DNA from: Planctomycetota bacterium
GTDB lineage: Bacteria > Planctomycetota > UBA8742 > UBA2392
Direction: 5' to 3'
Assembly (NCBI GenBank): GCA_020845475.1
Contig: JADLFN010000046.1
Coordinates: 76,997 to 140,996 of the forward strand
Length of the DNA stretch: 64,000 nt
Made by a program: the position numbers and the translations under genes. How positions within the stretch are numbered: the first letter of the stretch is position 1; each line of letters opens with the position of its first letter. Of this stretch, positions 47,285 to 56,073 are shown one piece after another. The notes under the pieces were generated by a model. The model was not told where the DNA came from, made no database searches, and worked only from the letters and a program-made list of their open reading frames with translations.

Positions 47285-48280
47285 TTACATGCGTGCCACT
47301 CGCTGTTCAGTTTCGCAGTCGCGGTGGACGGCGTCAACCGCAGTGGCGGCCTTGCCCTCGCTTTGGCCCGGGGGCAGGCGCCCTGGTAAGCCGGCGTGAA
47401 TAGCACCAACGATGAGGGGCACTACGTAGAGAACGGTTGCCAGTACATACCAGCGAGTTCTGAAGCCACTGGGCCCATCAGTCAGCGACCTCACCAGCCC
47501 GCACAGCGCGATGAGCGAAGAGAACGCGCTCCCCACCCACAGCGAACCGTGATTGATACCCGCCAACAACGGCAAGAGCGCGGCCGGAACAAGCACAGCA
47601 AACCCCGCGCGAAGCAACACGCGCGTCCTGGCCTCCCCCAGCCAATCCAGCAACGTATGCAGCCGAGCAACTGCATACTGATCCCGCAGGCGCAGCGCGA
47701 CCGCCATAAGGTGCGGAATCTGCCAAAGCACAAGCAGAACCGACAATGTCCATGCCAACATGGACGGCGTGCCCAACAACGCGGCGCCAATCAACGGCGG
47801 CATGGCGCCGGGTATGACGCCAACGAGGCTTGCGGCCGGAGTAATGCGTTTGAGCGGGGTATAGGCGAACGAGTAAAGCAGCAGAGCTGCCAGGCTCAAA
47901 CCTGCGGCCGCCACACTTCCCGCGATCATCACCATGGCGAGGCCCGCAAGCGACAACAGGAGTGCCTGGCCAAGGGCGGCGCGCGCTTCAAGGCGTTGCG
48001 CCGGCAATGGGCGCGCGCTGGTGCGTTCCATCAGCGCATCGGTATCGCGCTCCAACCACATGTTGAACGTGCATGCGGCCGCCACGGTCAGGGATACGCC
48101 TGCCAGCGCCAGCAAGCTTGAAGCACGGAAGCCGCCCGGCCCTTGTGCTGCCAAACCCGCCGCTGCGGCCAGAGTGGAACTCAAAGTGATGCGCGGCTTG
48201 GTGAGCACCAGCAGGTCGCGCGCCACGCGCCACGGAGCGGGGCGGGCAGGTGCAGCGATGATGGCCGCCTGCGAGGTCAT
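47285..48280 (-). CDS. ctaB: Protoheme IX farnesyltransferase (heme O synthase)
   Basis: This membrane prenyltransferase converts heme B to heme O, the precursor of heme A in oxidases. The 331-residue protein has about eight helices and the UbiA-family motif NMWLERDTDALMERTSARPLP (with Asp ligands) near residues 73-93. A second Asp-containing loop (LRLRDQYAVARL) follows. Presence of ctaB next to heme-copper oxidase genes shows that at least one uses a modified heme. No heme A synthase (ctaA) is seen here. Its start overlaps the fusion gene stop by 4 nt. Confidence 0.9.
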   Translation of the reverse strand: MTSQAAIIAAPARPAPWRVARDLLVLTKPRITLSSTLAAAAGLAAQGPGGFRASSLLALAGVSLTVAAACTFNMWLERDTDALMERTSARPLPAQRLEARAALGQALLLSLAGLAMVMIAGSVAAAGLSLAALLLYSFAYTPLKRITPAASLVGVIPGAMPPLIGAALLGTPSMLAWTLSVLLVLWQIPHLMAVALRLRDQYAVARLHTLLDWLGEARTRVLLRAGFAVLVPAALLPLLAGINHGSLWVGSAFSSLIALCGLVRSLTDGPSGFRTRWYVLATVLYVVPLIVGAIHAGLPGRLPPGQSEGKAATAVDAVHRDCETEQRVARM

Positions 48281-50271
48281 GGCGACTCCCAGTGGAAGCC
48301 GCGTCCGGTTTCAAAGCGCAGCACATGGCGGCGGCCCTCGGCGAAGTGGACTGTGCGTGACTCGTGGTGGCGCCAGCCGTTTTCGAGGCCGGTGTCATTG
48401 ATTTCAACGCGCACGGTGTGGCTTCCGGGCGCGAGCTCAAGGCGTTCCAGCGCGCTGCTGGGCCCGGCATCAGAAAGCCCGGTGGGGTCATAGGTGCGCT
48501 CAAGCAGCTTGGCGCCGTCCACGAAGATGCGCATGGCCACGGGCGCGCGTTTGGCGAGTGATGTCTGGGCGCCGCGCATGTGGGGCGCGACATCGTTGCC
48601 GGCGCGCTGGGCCGAGTCAGGCAGCACTTCGCCGGCATGGATGAACGTGACCACGAGTTCGCTCTGGGGAACGCGCGCCGGCGCAAGGGTCACCCAGCCC
48701 GCCAGCGAGCAAAGCGCTACGAACACAAACCAGAACGCGAACCCGGCGATCCAGGCCGCGCGGCTGCGAGCGGGCTTCTTCACGGTGGCGCGCTTGAGCT
48801 CGGGCAGGCCAAAGGCGGAGAGGCGCAGCAGGCTGAATTTCTCAGGGGCCGGCAGGCGGATTTTGTCGCCGGGGTCGCGCACGCCGGCGAGGCGATCCTG
48901 CGTCCAGCGCGCGCCCAGCCTGAACTGCGGGTCCGCGCCGCAGGCCGCCACCGTCACGCGATTGGCGCCGCGGCGCTGGGCGCGCTGCACGAGTTCCGGG
49001 TGCACAAAGCCCGCGCAGGGAACTTCGATAATGCGCACGCCGGGCAACTCAGCATAGGTGCCCTCGGCAGAAATATTCGCAGATGGCACCGCGCAGGCCT
49101 CGCGGCAAAGGAATATGAGTTCGTCGTGCGAGTTCCCATCAAACCAGCGGTCAATCTTCTCGCGCACGGCTTGCAGCGGCAACTCGGGCAGGACAATGGC
49201 CGCGGGGCTGCAGGAGCCCACACAGATGCCGCAGGAGGTGCATTTGTCGGGGTCGATGCTGGATACGCGACGACCGTTGAGCTGGATCATGGAGTTGGCG
49301 CCAAAGGGGCAATCCTTGACGCACTGCTCGCAGCCCGTGCAGCGCTCGGAATTCACTTTGGCGGCAGGACGGCGCCGGCGCCCAAATGCCCAGGGCACGG
49401 CAATCAGCGCCACGCTTGCAGCCAGCGCCGCCAGCCAGAGCGCACCTTCGCCCACGCGCTCGTAAAATAACAATGGCAACTGGTACCACGGGTCGAGCAC
49501 GTATTGCGCCGTGACGCGGCCAAGGTCAGCTTCACCGCGCGCCGGCGCTGGGAATATGAGAGATACCGCCACAAGGCTGAAAATAAGGGCCAGCGTCAAA
49601 GGCCTGTTCGTCAAGAGGCGCGGCTTGTTGATGCGCAACAGGTGCAGCCAGATGCCGGCGGCCAGCAGCAGCGGAATGGCAATGTGGCAGAAGAACACCA
49701 CGAAGAACAACAGCGAGTTGAGCAGGCCATGGGAGGCAAAGCCTCGCGAGAGCGGGTTGGAGAACAGCCCCAGCCGATCAACCATGGCGGCGGTCATCTT
49801 GGCGGTTTCGGCGCCGCCATCATCCCACAGCATCCAGTAGCCGAGCCAGCCATCGATCCAGAGCGTGAAAAGCAAAAGCAGGCCGGTGAACCAGGCCAGC
49901 CAGCGCGCGCCGACAAATCTCGCCTGAGCGAACGTTTTGATCACGTGCAATAGAACCAGCAGCATGCAGGCGTCGGAACTGTAGCGGTGCAATGTGCGAA
50001 TAAACAGCGCAACGGGGCCCGTGAGCGAGTCATAGGCCTGGTCCACAGCCGGCACATAAAAGAACAGCAAGGCAATGCCGCTGACCGCAGAGATGATGAG
50101 CGCGGTATTGGCAGCCGCACCAAGATGCATGAACAGGTTCAGCTCATCGGGCACGACGCGCGTGAGCATGTCCTGCGGGCCGCGCAGACCTTTCTCCAGC
50201 ACACGGAAAAGCGCGGCCGGGCGCGCCTGCGCACCCGGTTGCGTTTCCGGCGGCTGGGCGGCCTCGATCAT
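48277..50271 (-). CDS. Cytochrome b-ferredoxin-MvhD-like fusion membrane protein
   Basis: This is a 664-residue multidomain protein. Residues 50-295 form a cytochrome b-type membrane part with helix pairs H95/H109 and H196/H210, both 14 apart as in the two heme ligand pairs of bc1 cytochrome b. Two 4Fe-4S motifs follow (C311/314/317/321 and C344/347/350/354), then an MvhD-like Fe-S domain (about 384-465, with FLCREACA, VPCAGFVHPELV and AACGADPQF). A further transmembrane helix (506-528) and a Gly/Ser-rich extracytoplasmic tail complete it. This could move electrons from quinol through hemes and clusters to a partner. It overlaps SCO (4 nt) and ctaB (4 nt). Confidence 0.85.
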   Translation of the reverse strand: MIEAAQPPETQPGAQARPAALFRVLEKGLRGPQDMLTRVVPDELNLFMHLGAAANTALIISAVSGIALLFFYVPAVDQAYDSLTGPVALFIRTLHRYSSDACMLLVLLHVIKTFAQARFVGARWLAWFTGLLLLFTLWIDGWLGYWMLWDDGGAETAKMTAAMVDRLGLFSNPLSRGFASHGLLNSLLFFVVFFCHIAIPLLLAAGIWLHLLRINKPRLLTNRPLTLALIFSLVAVSLIFPAPARGEADLGRVTAQYVLDPWYQLPLLFYERVGEGALWLAALAASVALIAVPWAFGRRRRPAAKVNSERCTGCEQCVKDCPFGANSMIQLNGRRVSSIDPDKCTSCGICVGSCSPAAIVLPELPLQAVREKIDRWFDGNSHDELIFLCREACAVPSANISAEGTYAELPGVRIIEVPCAGFVHPELVQRAQRRGANRVTVAACGADPQFRLGARWTQDRLAGVRDPGDKIRLPAPEKFSLLRLSAFGLPELKRATVKKPARSRAAWIAGFAFWFVFVALCSLAGWVTLAPARVPQSELVVTFIHAGEVLPDSAQRAGNDVAPHMRGAQTSLAKRAPVAMRIFVDGAKLLERTYDPTGLSDAGPSSALERLELAPGSHTVRVEINDTGLENGWRHHESRTVHFAEGRRHVLRFETGRGFHWESP

Positions 50272-51221
50272 GGGCGTGCCCCAGGCTCGGCCAACAGCTT
50301 ATGCAGGGCCTCGATCAGCCATGCCTGCTGCGTTTGGCCCAGTGTGAAGGTGTATGCCACGCGACCGCCGCGATCGATGACGATGAAGAGGTTGTTATGG
50401 TCAATCTCGCCCGTCTCCGGGTCGTGCTTGCGGATGAAGCCGTAGTTGTCGAGCACGTGGTTGACCGTTTCGCTCTTGCCCGTCAGCAACTGGTATGTCG
50501 GCAGGGGCAGTTTCTGGGATTCCGAGATCGCGGCCAGGCGCGCGACGTCATCGCGCTCGGGGTCAAGCGTGATCGCGGCGATGGTGAGCTGCTTGAGCTC
50601 GGCCGGCGACAAAGCATCGGTTACGCTGCGCAACTGCGCAAAGATCATCGGTCACGTCTTGTTGCAATGTGAGTAATGGCCGGTAATCAGCACCACGCGT
50701 TCGCGCCAGTCGATCAAACGGAATTCCTGGCCGGCCTGGTTGACCAGCACGAAAGGCTCTGGCTTGCGCGCCGTGCGCAGGACATCGGCCGGGAAATCCG
50801 GGATCTTGTCAGGCGCGGCTTCGGCGCGGGGCGGGCTCATGGCCACCAGCGCGGCCCCTGCCAGCACAGCCACGAGCAGCGCGCCGGCCACGGGCTGGAC
50901 GAAGGCGCGCGTCTTGCGGCGCGCGGCTTCGAGCAGTTGCCGGCCCCAGACGCCAAGCACCACGCCGCCCAGCAGAATGGGGCCCACGAAATAATTGATC
51001 ACATAGTGAATGTTGGCGCCGCCCTTTTCGTAGCCGAAGCACCACTGGCGGAAGTTATCTGCAAATTCGCCGACTTCGGCGTTGGGCGCGGGCGCAAACA
51101 GCACTACAAGCACAAACAGGTTGTAGGCCAGCAGCAGCGTCAGGGAAAAAGCGGCAAAGCGCCAACCGCGGAAGCCGCGGCTGACGCCTGAAACCCACAA
51201 TGAGAGCCTGGAGTGTCGCAT
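50268..51221 (-). CDS. SCO1/SenC copper chaperone with in-frame UGA at the second CxxxC cysteine (candidate selenoprotein)
   Basis: If the UGA at 50652-50654 is read through, the product is 317 residues. It has three N-terminal hydrophobic helices (about 23-43, 72-93, 107-128) and then a thioredoxin-like SCO domain. The motif is C186-N-K-T-U190-P, followed by a conserved downstream half with H275 in IDHNNLFIVID. SCO proteins bind copper through CxxxC and a His about 85-90 residues later, and the spacing here is 85. They load CuA and related centres, which fits the CuA subunit next door. TGA serves as the normal stop of several neighbouring genes. If there is no read-through, the gene is split into 189- and 126-residue parts. 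Confidence 0.75.
50625..50654 (-). promoter_or_regulatory. Candidate bacterial SECIS-like stem-loop just after the UGA
   Basis: After the UGA (50652-50654) come 12 nt, then GCGC-AGUU-GCGC (50639-50628), extended by U-A and U-G pairs to six base pairs. The apical loop (AGUU) starts 16 nt after the UGA and has G at its second position. Bacterial SECIS elements are described as lying about 16-37 nt past the UGA with a G among the first two loop bases, as I recall. The stem is short and GC-rich, so it is supportive only. Confidence 0.5.
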
Positions 51222-51266: not shown

Positions 51267-52964
51267 CTAGCGCACGTGCCACACGTCGGCCAGTGCTTTC
51301 CAGTTCGCGAAGTAATAAACCGCAAACCACGCCATGAAGAGCAGCACCAGCGCCACGGTGCCTTTGGCCTTGAGTCCCGTCTTGCTCGGCTGCCAGTCGC
51401 TGGTGATGAGCGCCAGGTTGCTCTTCATGCGCTCCATGTCCTGCCAGCCCTCAATCGGCCCGCCCTTGTTGGACTTGCCGAAGAAGACCGCCACAACCGT
51501 CGTCAGCACGAAGATCAGCACGCCGGTGAAAGTAACCACGCCGCCAATGCCCAGCAGTGCCAGCCACGGCCCTGCGCCCTCGACGCCGCTCAGCGGAGTG
51601 CGCCGCGGCGCGCCGTGCATGCCCGCCGCGACCATGCCAATGGCCATCATGCTCAGGCCCAGCGCGAAGATGTAGGGCTGCAGGCGGCAGAGTGCCTTGA
51701 CCGGGTATTCGCGGCGCCAGATCAACGGCACGACATAATAGGCCAAGCCCATGAACGCCAGCGAGGTGCCGCCGGCAACAGTCATATGGAAGTGGCCGGG
51801 AATGCGCAGCGTGTTGTGAGCAATGATATTGATCTGGTGCGTTCCAAGGGTCACGCCGGTCACGCCGCCGCCAAAGCCGAAGATGAACAGTGAAAGGAAC
51901 ATCGCGGAGAAGCCCGGGTCTTTCCAGGGCGCAGCCTTGAGCCAGCCGAAGAGGCCTTCATTGAAGCCCTTCTTGCGCATGGCAATTTCAACCGAGGCCG
52001 GCACGGTGAAGCCGTGAATCATGGAGGCGAGTACCGCCAGGTAGAGCGCATAGGAAGTATTCCACATCTTCCATTCCGCGCTCACACCCGGGTCCACCAG
52101 CAGGTGGTGCGCCGAGGCCAGGTTGATGAAGAGAATGTAGAGCACAAAGGCGACGCGGCATACCGACTGGCTCAGCGGGCGTGCGCCCGTGGTCAGCGTG
52201 GCCAGCAGGTACCACACGGCGACGTGCGCGGCAACGTTGATCTGCTGCGAGGGGTGGCCAAGGCCCCACCACACGAGGCGGTAAACAGCGGGGTCAATGT
52301 CTGAAACGCTGCCCCAGCCGATGCCGAGCGATGCCAGGAACGTCGGCACCATGATAGCCGCGCCGTGCAGCAGCGTGAGGACGGCAATGATCGCGGCGGC
52401 AATGGCGCCGAACACGACCAGCGGCACGGAGCCCTTGTAAGTCCTGTCGCGGCGCGCGATGTAGATGCACAGGAAGAAGTTGATGACGGCAATCAGCGTG
52501 CCGACGGCAAAGGAAACAATGCCGCCATAGAAAACCGGGTCAGCGGCAAGCGGCGGGTAGGACGTCATCAGCACGTCGCCCTTGCCCTGAAGAATGGTGA
52601 TATTCACAGCCAGCGCGCCGCCGGCCATGAGTATGAACCCGACCCAGGCCAGCGCCGGCGACGCTAATCGACTTTTCAACAGCGTGGTGCCGGCGAAGTA
52701 CAGGATCGCGATCTCCATGAAAATAATCCAGAAGATCAGCATGTTCAGGCCGTGGAATGTGAGTACCCGGTAATAGGTCAGGTCGCTCACAAAACGCACG
52801 ACTTCCCAGCGCGTCAGCGCCACGGTGATGCCGGCGAGCGCGCCGATCAGCAGCGAGACGACGGCGGCCACGGCGTTGAGCTTGATGAAGCGCTCGGCTT
52901 CGAGGCACACCGGCAGCCCGGTGGTGTCGCAGACGCGCATCTTGTTCGGCAGGAAATTTTCCAT
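51267..52964 (-). CDS. B-type heme-copper oxidase subunit I lacking the active-site Tyr (candidate NO reductase, eNOR-like)
   Basis: This 565-residue protein has about 14 helices. Heme ligands are H71 (LTFHGLN) and H391/H393 in RIPGHFHMTVAG; CuB ligands are H237 and H286/H287 (SAHHLLVDPG). The segment is GLGHPSQQINVAA, so position +4 from H237, Tyr in O2-reducing A- and B-type oxidases, is Q241. Loss of that Tyr is the mark of NO-reducing members of the superfamily. The CuA subunit II next door shows B-type origin. It probably reduces NO (made by NirS) or acts in a related role. A few heme-copper enzymes with atypical sites still have unknown activity. Confidence 0.82.
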   Translation of the reverse strand: MENFLPNKMRVCDTTGLPVCLEAERFIKLNAVAAVVSLLIGALAGITVALTRWEVVRFVSDLTYYRVLTFHGLNMLIFWIIFMEIAILYFAGTTLLKSRLASPALAWVGFILMAGGALAVNITILQGKGDVLMTSYPPLAADPVFYGGIVSFAVGTLIAVINFFLCIYIARRDRTYKGSVPLVVFGAIAAAIIAVLTLLHGAAIMVPTFLASLGIGWGSVSDIDPAVYRLVWWGLGHPSQQINVAAHVAVWYLLATLTTGARPLSQSVCRVAFVLYILFINLASAHHLLVDPGVSAEWKMWNTSYALYLAVLASMIHGFTVPASVEIAMRKKGFNEGLFGWLKAAPWKDPGFSAMFLSLFIFGFGGGVTGVTLGTHQINIIAHNTLRIPGHFHMTVAGGTSLAFMGLAYYVVPLIWRREYPVKALCRLQPYIFALGLSMMAIGMVAAGMHGAPRRTPLSGVEGAGPWLALLGIGGVVTFTGVLIFVLTTVVAVFFGKSNKGGPIEGWQDMERMKSNLALITSDWQPSKTGLKAKGTVALVLLFMAWFAVYYFANWKALADVWHVR

Positions 52965-52976
52965 TGGGGTCCCCCG

Positions 52977-53537
52977 CTATTCGACAATGATCTTGCCGCG
53001 CATGTCGGCATGCTCGCCGCCGCAGAATTCATTGCAGATGATGGTGAATTCGCCCGTGGTCGTGGGCGTGATGCGCAGCACGTGGTCATAACCCGGCAGC
53101 ACGTGGAAATTCATGTTCAGGCCCTGCTCCCCCTGCACCGAGAGGCCGTGCTGGAAATCGAGCGAGGACACATGCAGGCGGTACTCCACGCCCTTTTTCA
53201 GCTTGAGCACGGGATACCAGCGCCAGGCGCGGCCAATCAGGTAGATGTCACTGCCCGGCGCGGGCTCGCACACCGGCACCTTTTCCGGCGCGCGGTTGGG
53301 GTACGTGACCTCCATCGTTCCCGTACGTGTCGCCTGGACGAACTTTTCCGTGCGCGTGTTGAAGTCGCCGGGCGCGACTTTGTACGCCTCGCCGGAACTG
53401 GTCTGTTTGCCCTTGAGGTGCCAATAGGGCATGGCGATGGAAAGCACGATGCACCAGACGAGCGACAGCCCGATCCACATTTTCTCTGCGCCATGGGGCG
53501 GTTCGCACCAGTCGGCGGGAGGCTGAGTTATGCTCAT
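52977..53537 (-). CDS. CuA-containing subunit II of the B-type oxidase/NOR complex
   Basis: This 186-residue protein has a short N-terminal membrane helix (about 20-40) followed by a cupredoxin domain. CuA ligands are in SSLDFQHGLSV (His) and ICNEFCGGEHADM (Cys, Glu, Cys, His, Met). It is short compared with classical COX2, as in ba3-type subunit II. It receives electrons from a cytochrome c (a lipoprotein c-type heme gene lies at 55621) and passes them to subunit I. SCO downstream is the expected CuA loader. It lies 12 nt upstream of subunit I. Confidence 0.88.
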   Translation of the reverse strand: MSITQPPADWCEPPHGAEKMWIGLSLVWCIVLSIAMPYWHLKGKQTSSGEAYKVAPGDFNTRTEKFVQATRTGTMEVTYPNRAPEKVPVCEPAPGSDIYLIGRAWRWYPVLKLKKGVEYRLHVSSLDFQHGLSVQGEQGLNMNFHVLPGYDHVLRITPTTTGEFTIICNEFCGGEHADMRGKIIVE

Positions 53538-53987: not shown

Positions 53988-55469
53988 TCAAGCCTCCCTC
54001 ATAACCGGCGCTTCCGCACGCTGGCGGTTGCGCCACGCCGAAATCACCAGAATCACAAACAGGCCGCCGCCGGCGACTGCCAGCACGCCGCCAATGGCCA
54101 TGATCGCCAGGCCCAGGTGCTGTTGCGCTGTGCTGACCTGCTGCTCCGCGCCGTAAACCTTGCGCGCCATGCCGTGCAGGCCCGCGAGTGCCAGCCCCAC
54201 CACGAACGTCACCTGGCCCACGCCAAACAACAGCGGTTGAATCGCGGCCGCGCGCTTGCCCTTCTCGCCGAGCTGGCCAAGTTTCAAGTGCGCCATCAGC
54301 GGGAACGCCGCGGCCATGAACGCCGCCGTCACGCCGCCGATGCTGGCGTGATAGTGCGCCGGAATCATCACGTTCGAGCCCGAGATCAGCGCCCCGCAGA
54401 TGAAGCCCGTCAGGGTCAAAGCCGCGCTTGCGCCAAAGCCCGCCACGCCCGGCTCCAGCCACCAGCGGCGCGGCATCAAGCCCGCGCGGGCGCGGCGAAC
54501 CAGAGCGACGACAAGCAGCACGAGCATCACCAGTACGCCGGGGAAAATGCCCCAGCGCATGAGTTCCGTGAAGGCGGAGAAGTAGCTGCCGGTCTGCGCG
54601 CCCTGCAGCGCGACAAGCGGGCCCGCAAGATGCGGCAGGATCAGGGCCCCGAAGATGAAAGTTGCAACGCGGCGCGAAACCGGCGAGCCGCCCAGCGCTG
54701 GCGCAAGCAGAATCAGCCACGCCGCCATCATGGCCGCGACGTTGGCCACTTGCAGGATGTGCCCGCCGCCCCAGAAGGTGCTTTCATAGAAGTGCAGCGG
54801 GTAGAGCGGCTCGCGCGTGTAAACGGCGGGCAGCGTCTGGGCCGAGGCCGCCATGGTGATCAGCGCGACGATGAAAGCCAAGGCGCACGCGCGCAGCCCC
54901 GGCATGGCGGCTGCGGGCAGGAGTGTGTGCGCCTTCATTTCTTCCCGGGCCAGGGTCAGCGGGCCGGTGATGAAGCCCGCCAGCATGCCGGCGCCAAACA
55001 GGCCCAGCCCGGCCAAAAACACCGGGTGATCGAGCACGGGCACATAATTGGAAAGCACGGGCTCGGCCTGCGGCCAGGCCAGCGAAAGCAGCATCAACGC
55101 TGTGCCGGCCATCGCCGCAACCGCCGCCGCGCGCCGCAGCAATCCCGGCGCGCCCCGAGCGGGCACAAGTTGGAACAGGGCCAGCTCCATGGCGCCGAAC
55201 CACACCAACAGGGCCAAATCAACGTGCACAACCAGGAAGCGCTTGGCAAACGTCGGATCCTGGATGAGCGTGCTCAGACCGGGCGTGCGGCCAATAACCG
55301 GGATGAAGGCAAACACGCCGGCGATCACCAGCGCCACGAAGGCCAGCGCAAACCAGGCGCGCGAAAGCGCCACCGCCAGTGATGTCACAGCAGGCGTAGC
55401 CGCACGCACGGGCTCAGTTCGCATGCGCGCGGGGCTCTTTGCCGGCAGCTCCAGTGTGGCCAAGGTCAT
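53988..55469 (-). CDS. Second heme-copper-oxidase-like subunit I with atypical active site
   Basis: This 493-residue protein has about 12 helices. Oxidase-like landmarks are H82 in LVVHVDLALLVWF, H237 in WGGGHILQVAN and H372/H374 in PAHYHASIGG. The helix that should carry the CuB His pair reads LILPHLAGP, so P279 stands where the first His is expected, beside H280. Position +4 from H237 is Val and +3 is Gln. The fold is that of the superfamily but the metal site differs from both classical oxidases and NorB. The start at 55469 follows GGAA. It opens the operon behind a consensus-like sigma54 site. Its reaction is unknown. Confidence 0.72.
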   Translation of the reverse strand: MTLATLELPAKSPARMRTEPVRAATPAVTSLAVALSRAWFALAFVALVIAGVFAFIPVIGRTPGLSTLIQDPTFAKRFLVVHVDLALLVWFGAMELALFQLVPARGAPGLLRRAAAVAAMAGTALMLLSLAWPQAEPVLSNYVPVLDHPVFLAGLGLFGAGMLAGFITGPLTLAREEMKAHTLLPAAAMPGLRACALAFIVALITMAASAQTLPAVYTREPLYPLHFYESTFWGGGHILQVANVAAMMAAWLILLAPALGGSPVSRRVATFIFGALILPHLAGPLVALQGAQTGSYFSAFTELMRWGIFPGVLVMLVLLVVALVRRARAGLMPRRWWLEPGVAGFGASAALTLTGFICGALISGSNVMIPAHYHASIGGVTAAFMAAAFPLMAHLKLGQLGEKGKRAAAIQPLLFGVGQVTFVVGLALAGLHGMARKVYGAEQQVSTAQQHLGLAIMAIGGVLAVAGGGLFVILVISAWRNRQRAEAPVMREA

Positions 55470-55502
55470 GGGCGATTCCGCAACGAGAATGCTGATTGCA
55501 TT

Positions 55503-55517
55503 GCAACCTTCGTGCCA
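55503..55517 (-). promoter_or_regulatory. Sigma54 (-24/-12) promoter of the respiratory operon
   Basis: The minus strand has TGGCAC, 5 nt, then TTGC, followed by A: a perfect match to the -24/-12 consensus (55517-55512 and 55506-55503). It lies 34-48 nt before the ATG at 55469. An NtrC-type sigma54 activator is encoded 2 kb away. Confidence 0.85.
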
Positions 55518-55533
55518 TCGCCGCCCCCGGCGC

Positions 55534-55558
55534 GTGCAGCGCGGTTCTGGCGCTGCAC
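55534..55558. promoter_or_regulatory. Inverted repeat between divergent promoters
   Basis: Arms GTGCAGCGC (55534-55542) and GCGCTGCAC (55550-55558) flank 7 nt. It lies between the two divergent sigma54 promoters, with the right arm overlapping the +strand site. It could be the enhancer site of the NtrC-type regulator or a repressor operator. Confidence 0.45.
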
Positions 55559-55562
55559 TTGC
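55548..55562 (+). promoter_or_regulatory. Sigma54 (-24/-12) promoter of the cytochrome c/regulator unit
   Basis: TGGC (55548-55551), 7 nt, TTGC (55559-55562) matches the -24/-12 core. The start codon is at 55621. Its match to the AC after TGGC is poorer than in the minus-strand site. Confidence 0.65.
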
Positions 55563-55620
55563 TTGCGTGTTCACCACGCAGGGAGTATCTGTACCCCTGC
55601 ACTTCAACCAAGGAACACAC

Positions 55621-56073
55621 ATGAAACGCATCATGCTTGCTGCCATGGCGGTTGCCGCCGTCAGCTTCGCCGTCGCCTGTGGCGGCAACACGGCCGCACC
55701 CAAGGGCAACCAGCCCGCCGCAGCCGCGCGGCCAGAAACGCCTGCGGACTTCAAGGACAAGAAGAACGCGCTCAACGGCAATGCCGACGCGATCAAGGCC
55801 GGCGAGGGACTGTTCAAGGCGCAGTGCGCCTCCTGCCATGGCAACGAAGCCGATGGCAACAGCGACGCCGGCAAAGCGCTCAAGCCCCAGGCGGGCAACC
55901 TGCGCGCCGCCGATTTCCAGGCCATGAGCGACGGCTACATCTACTGGCGCATTACCAAGGGCGGCATTGGCGCCAACATCTCCGGCTCGGCAATGCAGGC
56001 GTTTGAAACGAACCTCAGCGAGGATCAGCGCTGGCAGGTCATCGCCTATCTGCGCAGCCTGTCCGCGAAGTAA
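55621..56073 (+). CDS. Class I c-type cytochrome lipoprotein
   Basis: The 150-residue product has a signal ending AVSFAVACGG, so it is a membrane-bound lipoprotein, followed by a single heme c motif CASCH (residues 61-65) and a distal Met candidate. It is a natural electron donor to the CuA subunit and to NirS. It is divergent from the oxidase operon and shares the promoter region. AAGGAA lies before the ATG. Confidence 0.88.
   Translation: MKRIMLAAMAVAAVSFAVACGGNTAAPKGNQPAAAARPETPADFKDKKNALNGNADAIKAGEGLFKAQCASCHGNEADGNSDAGKALKPQAGNLRAADFQAMSDGYIYWRITKGGIGANISGSAMQAFETNLSEDQRWQVIAYLRSLSAK

Follow-up and report, generated by a model that had tools for sequence, protein, structure and literature searches.

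Proteins of the SCO1/SenC family (PF02630), such as YpmQ/Sco of Bacillus subtilis (structure 1xzo), the protein of structure 4hde, and human SCO1 and SCO2, are chaperones whose site combines a C-x3-C motif with a distal histidine, and their genes are also found beside those of CuA-type oxidases. Whether SCO proteins act as copper donors or as thiol reductases is a long-standing question. Selenocysteine (Sec), on the other hand, is a feature of several families with a thioredoxin-like fold, including Prx-like (PF00578), Redoxin (PF08534) and GPX-like selenoproteins, where it lies in UxxC, TxxU or UxxT motifs. It has also been predicted in proteins related to copper, namely a CopZ-type 2Fe-2S protein, a P-type ATPase with a UxxC motif and an SO_0444 Cu/Zn efflux protein with a UxC motif (PMC13188914). 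Finally, the nitric-oxide reductases termed eNOR are defined by a glutamine at the position of the cross-linked tyrosine of heme-copper oxidases; their clusters carry a cupredoxin subunit II gene upstream of subunit I, and a SCO gene is listed in a heme-copper oxidase neighbourhood of Chloroflexi (PMC8756737).

The locus described here, from a planctomycete draft genome, combines traits of all these systems. It lies in a stretch of 64,000 nucleotides, hereafter the window. Like the SCO1/SenC chaperones, its product has a PF02630 domain with C-x3-C/U and the distal histidine in register, and its gene adjoins CuA-type oxidase-like genes; it departs from them in that the second cysteine is replaced by UGA, the N-terminus carries a conserved fusion with three transmembrane (TM) segments, and the adjacent enzyme is eNOR-like. 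With the thioredoxin-fold selenoproteins it would share Sec in a thioredoxin-like fold, and a remote Pfam similarity is detectable (AhpC-TSA, E 0.0034; GPX, E 0.28), whereas the motif is here C-x3-U, in another family and with a copper-site histidine. Placement of Sec at a possible copper-binding cysteine would also be common to the copper-related selenoproteins, whose folds are unrelated to SCO. Compared with described eNOR clusters, which have the same Gln-for-Tyr exchange and upstream cupredoxin gene, the present one stands apart by the predicted Sec of its SCO protein and by the cytochrome b/ferredoxin/FlpD fusion gene behind SCO.

The predicted selenoprotein gene occupies positions 50268-51221 of the minus strand, from an ATG at 51221 to a TGA stop at 50270-50268; a plus-strand reading of the same interval is meaningless. 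Translation with TGA as U yields a 317-residue product including Sec190, with a single internal UGA in the context GHYSHCNKT-U-PMIF. The C-N-K-T-UGA-P frame proposed in the initial annotation is thereby borne out, codon 190 being the TGA at 50652-50654 (minus strand) and the frame remaining open to the gene's own stop. Residues 155-288 match PF02630 over profile positions 2-134 of 134 (E 6.5e-21, 75.1 bits, cut-off 22.8), and an NCBIfam search matched no family. The UGA stands for the second cysteine of the SCO CxxxC motif. The first, Cys186 (TGC, 50664-50666, minus strand), aligns with the motif in 4hde and 1xzo, and the third residue of the copper site, His275 (CAT, 50397-50399, minus strand), aligns with the SCO histidine of 4hde and was correctly placed from the outset in IDHNN, 85 residues past the UGA. 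The set formed by C186, U/C190 and H275 is invariant in 13 orthologues save for the C/U exchange.

Upstream of the SCO domain, a basic N-terminus is followed by three hydrophobic segments detected by hydropathy (about residues 21-48, 71-93 and 105-133; 50823-51161, minus strand), which appear as helices in a low-confidence model. The AlphaFold model of the protein is poor (pLDDT 55) and is not a basis for site geometry. This three-TM part (50823-51221, minus strand) matches no Pfam or NCBIfam family; it is conserved and contains an invariant Cys61.

A first round of orthologue search in 99 relatives retrieved the 13 full-length orthologues, all genomes in the comparison being draft metagenome-assembled genomes (MAGs). 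TGA occupies the SCO cysteine column in nine of the 13, from nine MAGs and three genera of a single planctomycete family: three from genus g1, which includes the window's genome, five from g4 and one from g5. The remaining four, from g2, g6, g4 and family f23 (one each), have TGC or TGT at the same column. A second round, using a phylum sample of 392 genomes of which 184 had a match, added two Cys orthologues, both from f23, and all matches listed from this sample with TGA at the column belong to the window's own family. A related-locus search of genome contigs gave matches in two sister genomes only. The literature, searched for the places where the MAGs had been sampled, gave no result. Counted from the Cys or Sec codon, the frame runs for a nearly constant length before its stop: 127-128 codons in each of the UGA orthologues and 127 in the Cys orthologues, with one exception among the six. 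The tree of these sequences contains at least four Cys/Sec changes, a number that is approximate given its poorly supported deep nodes. Homologues of both kinds, which the initial annotation had singled out as informative, thus exist at position 190, and their downstream sequence is undecayed.

Comparison of the window's gene with its two same-genus copies (76% identity) gives dN/dS values past the UGA of 0.158 (0.124/0.786) and 0.147 (0.119/0.808). The same pairs give 0.204 and 0.195 before the UGA, so that the downstream part is at least as constrained as the upstream part. With a ratio of about 0.15, the sequence beyond the UGA is maintained as a protein, and the recurrence of TGA at one column in nine MAGs, together with this purifying selection, is more than chance would produce. 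A TGA that arose through an error in sequencing or assembly, or that marks a pseudogene, would take a single base change from TGC or TGT, in genomes that are all MAGs; yet nine of them, across three genera, share TGA at this codon, no other stop interrupts the frame and dN/dS is low, which leaves this explanation with a negligible probability.

The orthologues also bear on the idea that UGA190 is a real stop, separating a 189-residue membrane protein from a second protein initiated at an ATG at codon 192. The window does contain an ORF of 126 residues starting from this ATG just past the UGA. Two UGA orthologues (L028 and L030), however, have threonine instead of methionine there and hence no start codon, each Cys orthologue is one protein of roughly equal length, and the split would divide the thioredoxin fold and, with it, the copper site. 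We consider such a gene pair very improbable.

The genome encodes a complete selenocysteine system, all four components named for a search in the initial annotation being present. SelA (E 1.8e-139) lies at position 148491 of the window's own contig (C46) and a tRNA-Sec with anticodon UCA (selC) at 150361, both at a distance of about 21 kb from SCO; their presence on this contig means that mis-binning is not an issue. SelB (319 bits) and SelD (374 bits) are encoded on contigs C56 and C58, respectively. SelD is itself a predicted selenoprotein, with an in-frame TGA in SHGAG-U-GCK (L014, contig C58 of genome G000), and SelD with UxxK is a known type (PMC13188914). A second match of the tRNA-Sec model, on contig C66 of the same genome (L003), was rejected as selC and corresponds to a tRNA-Ser(UGA). 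Within the family, selA and a tRNA-Sec match were found in each of the 16 members searched, genomes with a Cys-type SCO among them, so that the Cys forms are not due to loss of Sec coding.

This complete Sec system also argues against UGA190 being read as another amino acid, through near-cognate read-through, a suppressor or a code change. Nothing specific speaks for such a reading: where orthologues have another residue at this position, it is always cysteine, and TGA terminates both the SCO gene and the cytochrome b/ferredoxin gene behind it, in agreement with the initial view that a general code change is unlikely. Its probability is extremely low.

A candidate bacterial SECIS element, UUGCGC-AGUU-GCGCAG, is found at 50626-50641 (minus strand). 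The 6-bp stem and AGUU loop described at the start are both present, with one correction: 16 nt is the distance from the UGA to the loop, the stem itself beginning at 10 nt. Published rules for bacterial SECIS elements specify a loop of 3-9 nt located 16-37 nt past the UGA, a stem of 4-16 bp, a G in the first two loop positions and an energy of -7.5 kcal/mol or lower (PMC13188914). The window hairpin has the loop spacing (16 nt), the loop G and a stem of at least 4 bp, and its energy of -7.3 kcal/mol is just short of the cut-off quoted there. Hairpins of all nine UGA genes conform in spacing and loop G, with loops 16-30 nt past the UGA. Those of g1 have the loop AGUU at 16 nt (-8.7 and -9.1 kcal/mol in the sister genomes), those of g4 the loop GGUC at 29 nt (from -5.1 kcal/mol in L022, the weakest, to -10.9), and that of g5 the loop GUG at 30 nt (-14.5 kcal/mol). 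The occurrence of two hairpin positions within one family suggests that the element has moved. Most Cys orthologues are without a strong hairpin (0, 0, 0, -3.8, -3.9 and, in L064, -6.8 kcal/mol). Protein-preserving codon shuffles give p values of 0.007-0.028 in g1 (0.02 for the window) and of 0.07-0.36 in other genera. The 50 nt around the window hairpin fold no better than shuffled sequence (z -0.01), and an Rfam scan of 50500-50800 returned no match at E up to 1, in a database where bacterial SECIS elements may be unmodelled. The hairpin evidence is thus supportive, not decisive.

Taken together, the machinery, the UGA and Cys homologues and the intact downstream sequence support the original reading of this codon, and UGA190 is very probably decoded as selenocysteine in vivo, as far as can be judged from sequence. 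SelA, SelB, SelC and SelD of the same genome would insert Sec under the direction of the downstream hairpin, producing a SCO1/SenC site made of C186-x3-U190 and H275 in a protein whose three-TM anchor would hold the SCO domain outside. Decoding may be partial: UGA recoding is normally incomplete, one study giving 30-40% in vivo (PMC4513850), and a truncated form would retain the conserved N-terminal membrane part. One could then envisage two products, a truncated three-TM protein and the full-length chaperone, in a ratio dependent on selenium, with the UGA also acting as a selenium sensor. Cys orthologues make the full form only, and we regard this regulatory scheme as unlikely.

The genes around the predicted Sec-type SCO, whose eNOR-like character went unremarked in the initial annotation, point to its possible target. 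Directly upstream on the same strand (51267-52964, minus) lies a subunit I of the heme-copper oxidase superfamily (PF00115, 1.4e-68), preceded by a CoxB-like subunit II (52977-53537, minus strand) with weak matches to TIGR02866 and to the NosZ cupredoxin domain. A default annotation of subunit I would be cytochrome c oxidase. Its GHPSQQ motif, however, aligned with GHPIVY of the ba3 oxidase, places a glutamine at the active-site tyrosine position, and GH-x-SQQ is found in all close orthologues; judged by the published definition, subunit I probably belongs to a nitric-oxide reductase of the eNOR type. The cupredoxin (CuA-type) subunit II adjoining it carries the CuA motif CNEFCGGEHADM, which is kept in the two relatives compared for coxB. 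Further along the same cluster, a second divergent COX1-family protein is encoded at 53988-55925 (minus strand; PF00115, E 7e-10), with GGGHILQV near the active-site position and no NCBIfam match; the mechanically called ORF probably extends well upstream of its true start.

Downstream of the SCO gene, a fusion of membrane cytochrome b, 2x[4Fe-4S] and FlpD-like domains (48277-50271, minus strand), identified by Pfam and by its synteny in all close orthologues, precedes a gene similar to heme O synthase (CtaB/CyoE; 47285-48280, minus strand; TIGR01473, 1.1e-49, under the curated cut-off). The order coxB-coxA-SCO-cytochrome b/ferredoxin/FlpD-ctaB is kept in two same-genus genomes, and that of coxA-SCO-cytochrome b in all close orthologues, Sec and Cys alike. 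The SCO stop overlaps the cytochrome b start as ATGA in the window and as NTGA, with ATGA, GTGA or TTGA offering a possible start, in most relatives, which suggests that translation of the cytochrome b gene is coupled to the full-length SCO frame. The fusion protein itself may be a module that feeds electrons into the NOR-like complex.

The conserved gene order, the eNOR-type glutamine and the CuA motif indicate that the SCO protein is probably an assembly factor that matures the neighbouring CuA-bearing eNOR-like enzyme. Both copper binding and the target enzyme are inferences, and Sec190 may be a copper ligand or equally a redox centre. In the first case, a Sec selenolate would take part in a Cu-S/Se/His site from which copper is handed over to the CuA centre of the nitric-oxide reductase, which would tie NO reduction to the supply of selenium; we put this forward tentatively, as a model with somewhat less than an even chance. 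In the second case, the protein would act as a thiol/selenol-disulfide reductase, with Sec190 in a C/U selenylsulfide couple that maintains the CuA cysteines in their reduced state. A reductase role is known for some bacterial SCO proteins (Thermus Sco1). The SCO fold is thioredoxin-like. Most prokaryotic selenoproteins are redox proteins of this thioredoxin-like kind (PMC13188914). The retention of C186, position 190 and H275, on the other hand, amounts to a full copper-binding set that a pure reductase would not need, and the redox function, too, is plausible without being probable.

The Sec-type SCO appears to be a selenoprotein family absent from the inventory of 119 prokaryotic families published in 2026, which lists neither SCO nor a CxxxU motif (PMC13188914). 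A literature search brought up no account of a SCO or SenC protein as a selenoprotein or with selenocysteine; most subscription papers, preprints and the groundwater MAG survey of Deng et al. (2026) were outside its reach, and a prior mention elsewhere is possible. Automatic annotation would cut the SCO gene into two broken ORFs, so that such proteins are easily missed. The predicted Sec is placed at the site of a well-studied metallochaperone, and the natural Cys/Sec pairs found in the same operon context offer direct material for the donor-versus-reductase question, since selenium can be told apart in X-ray absorption, and its presence changes copper affinity as well as redox potential.
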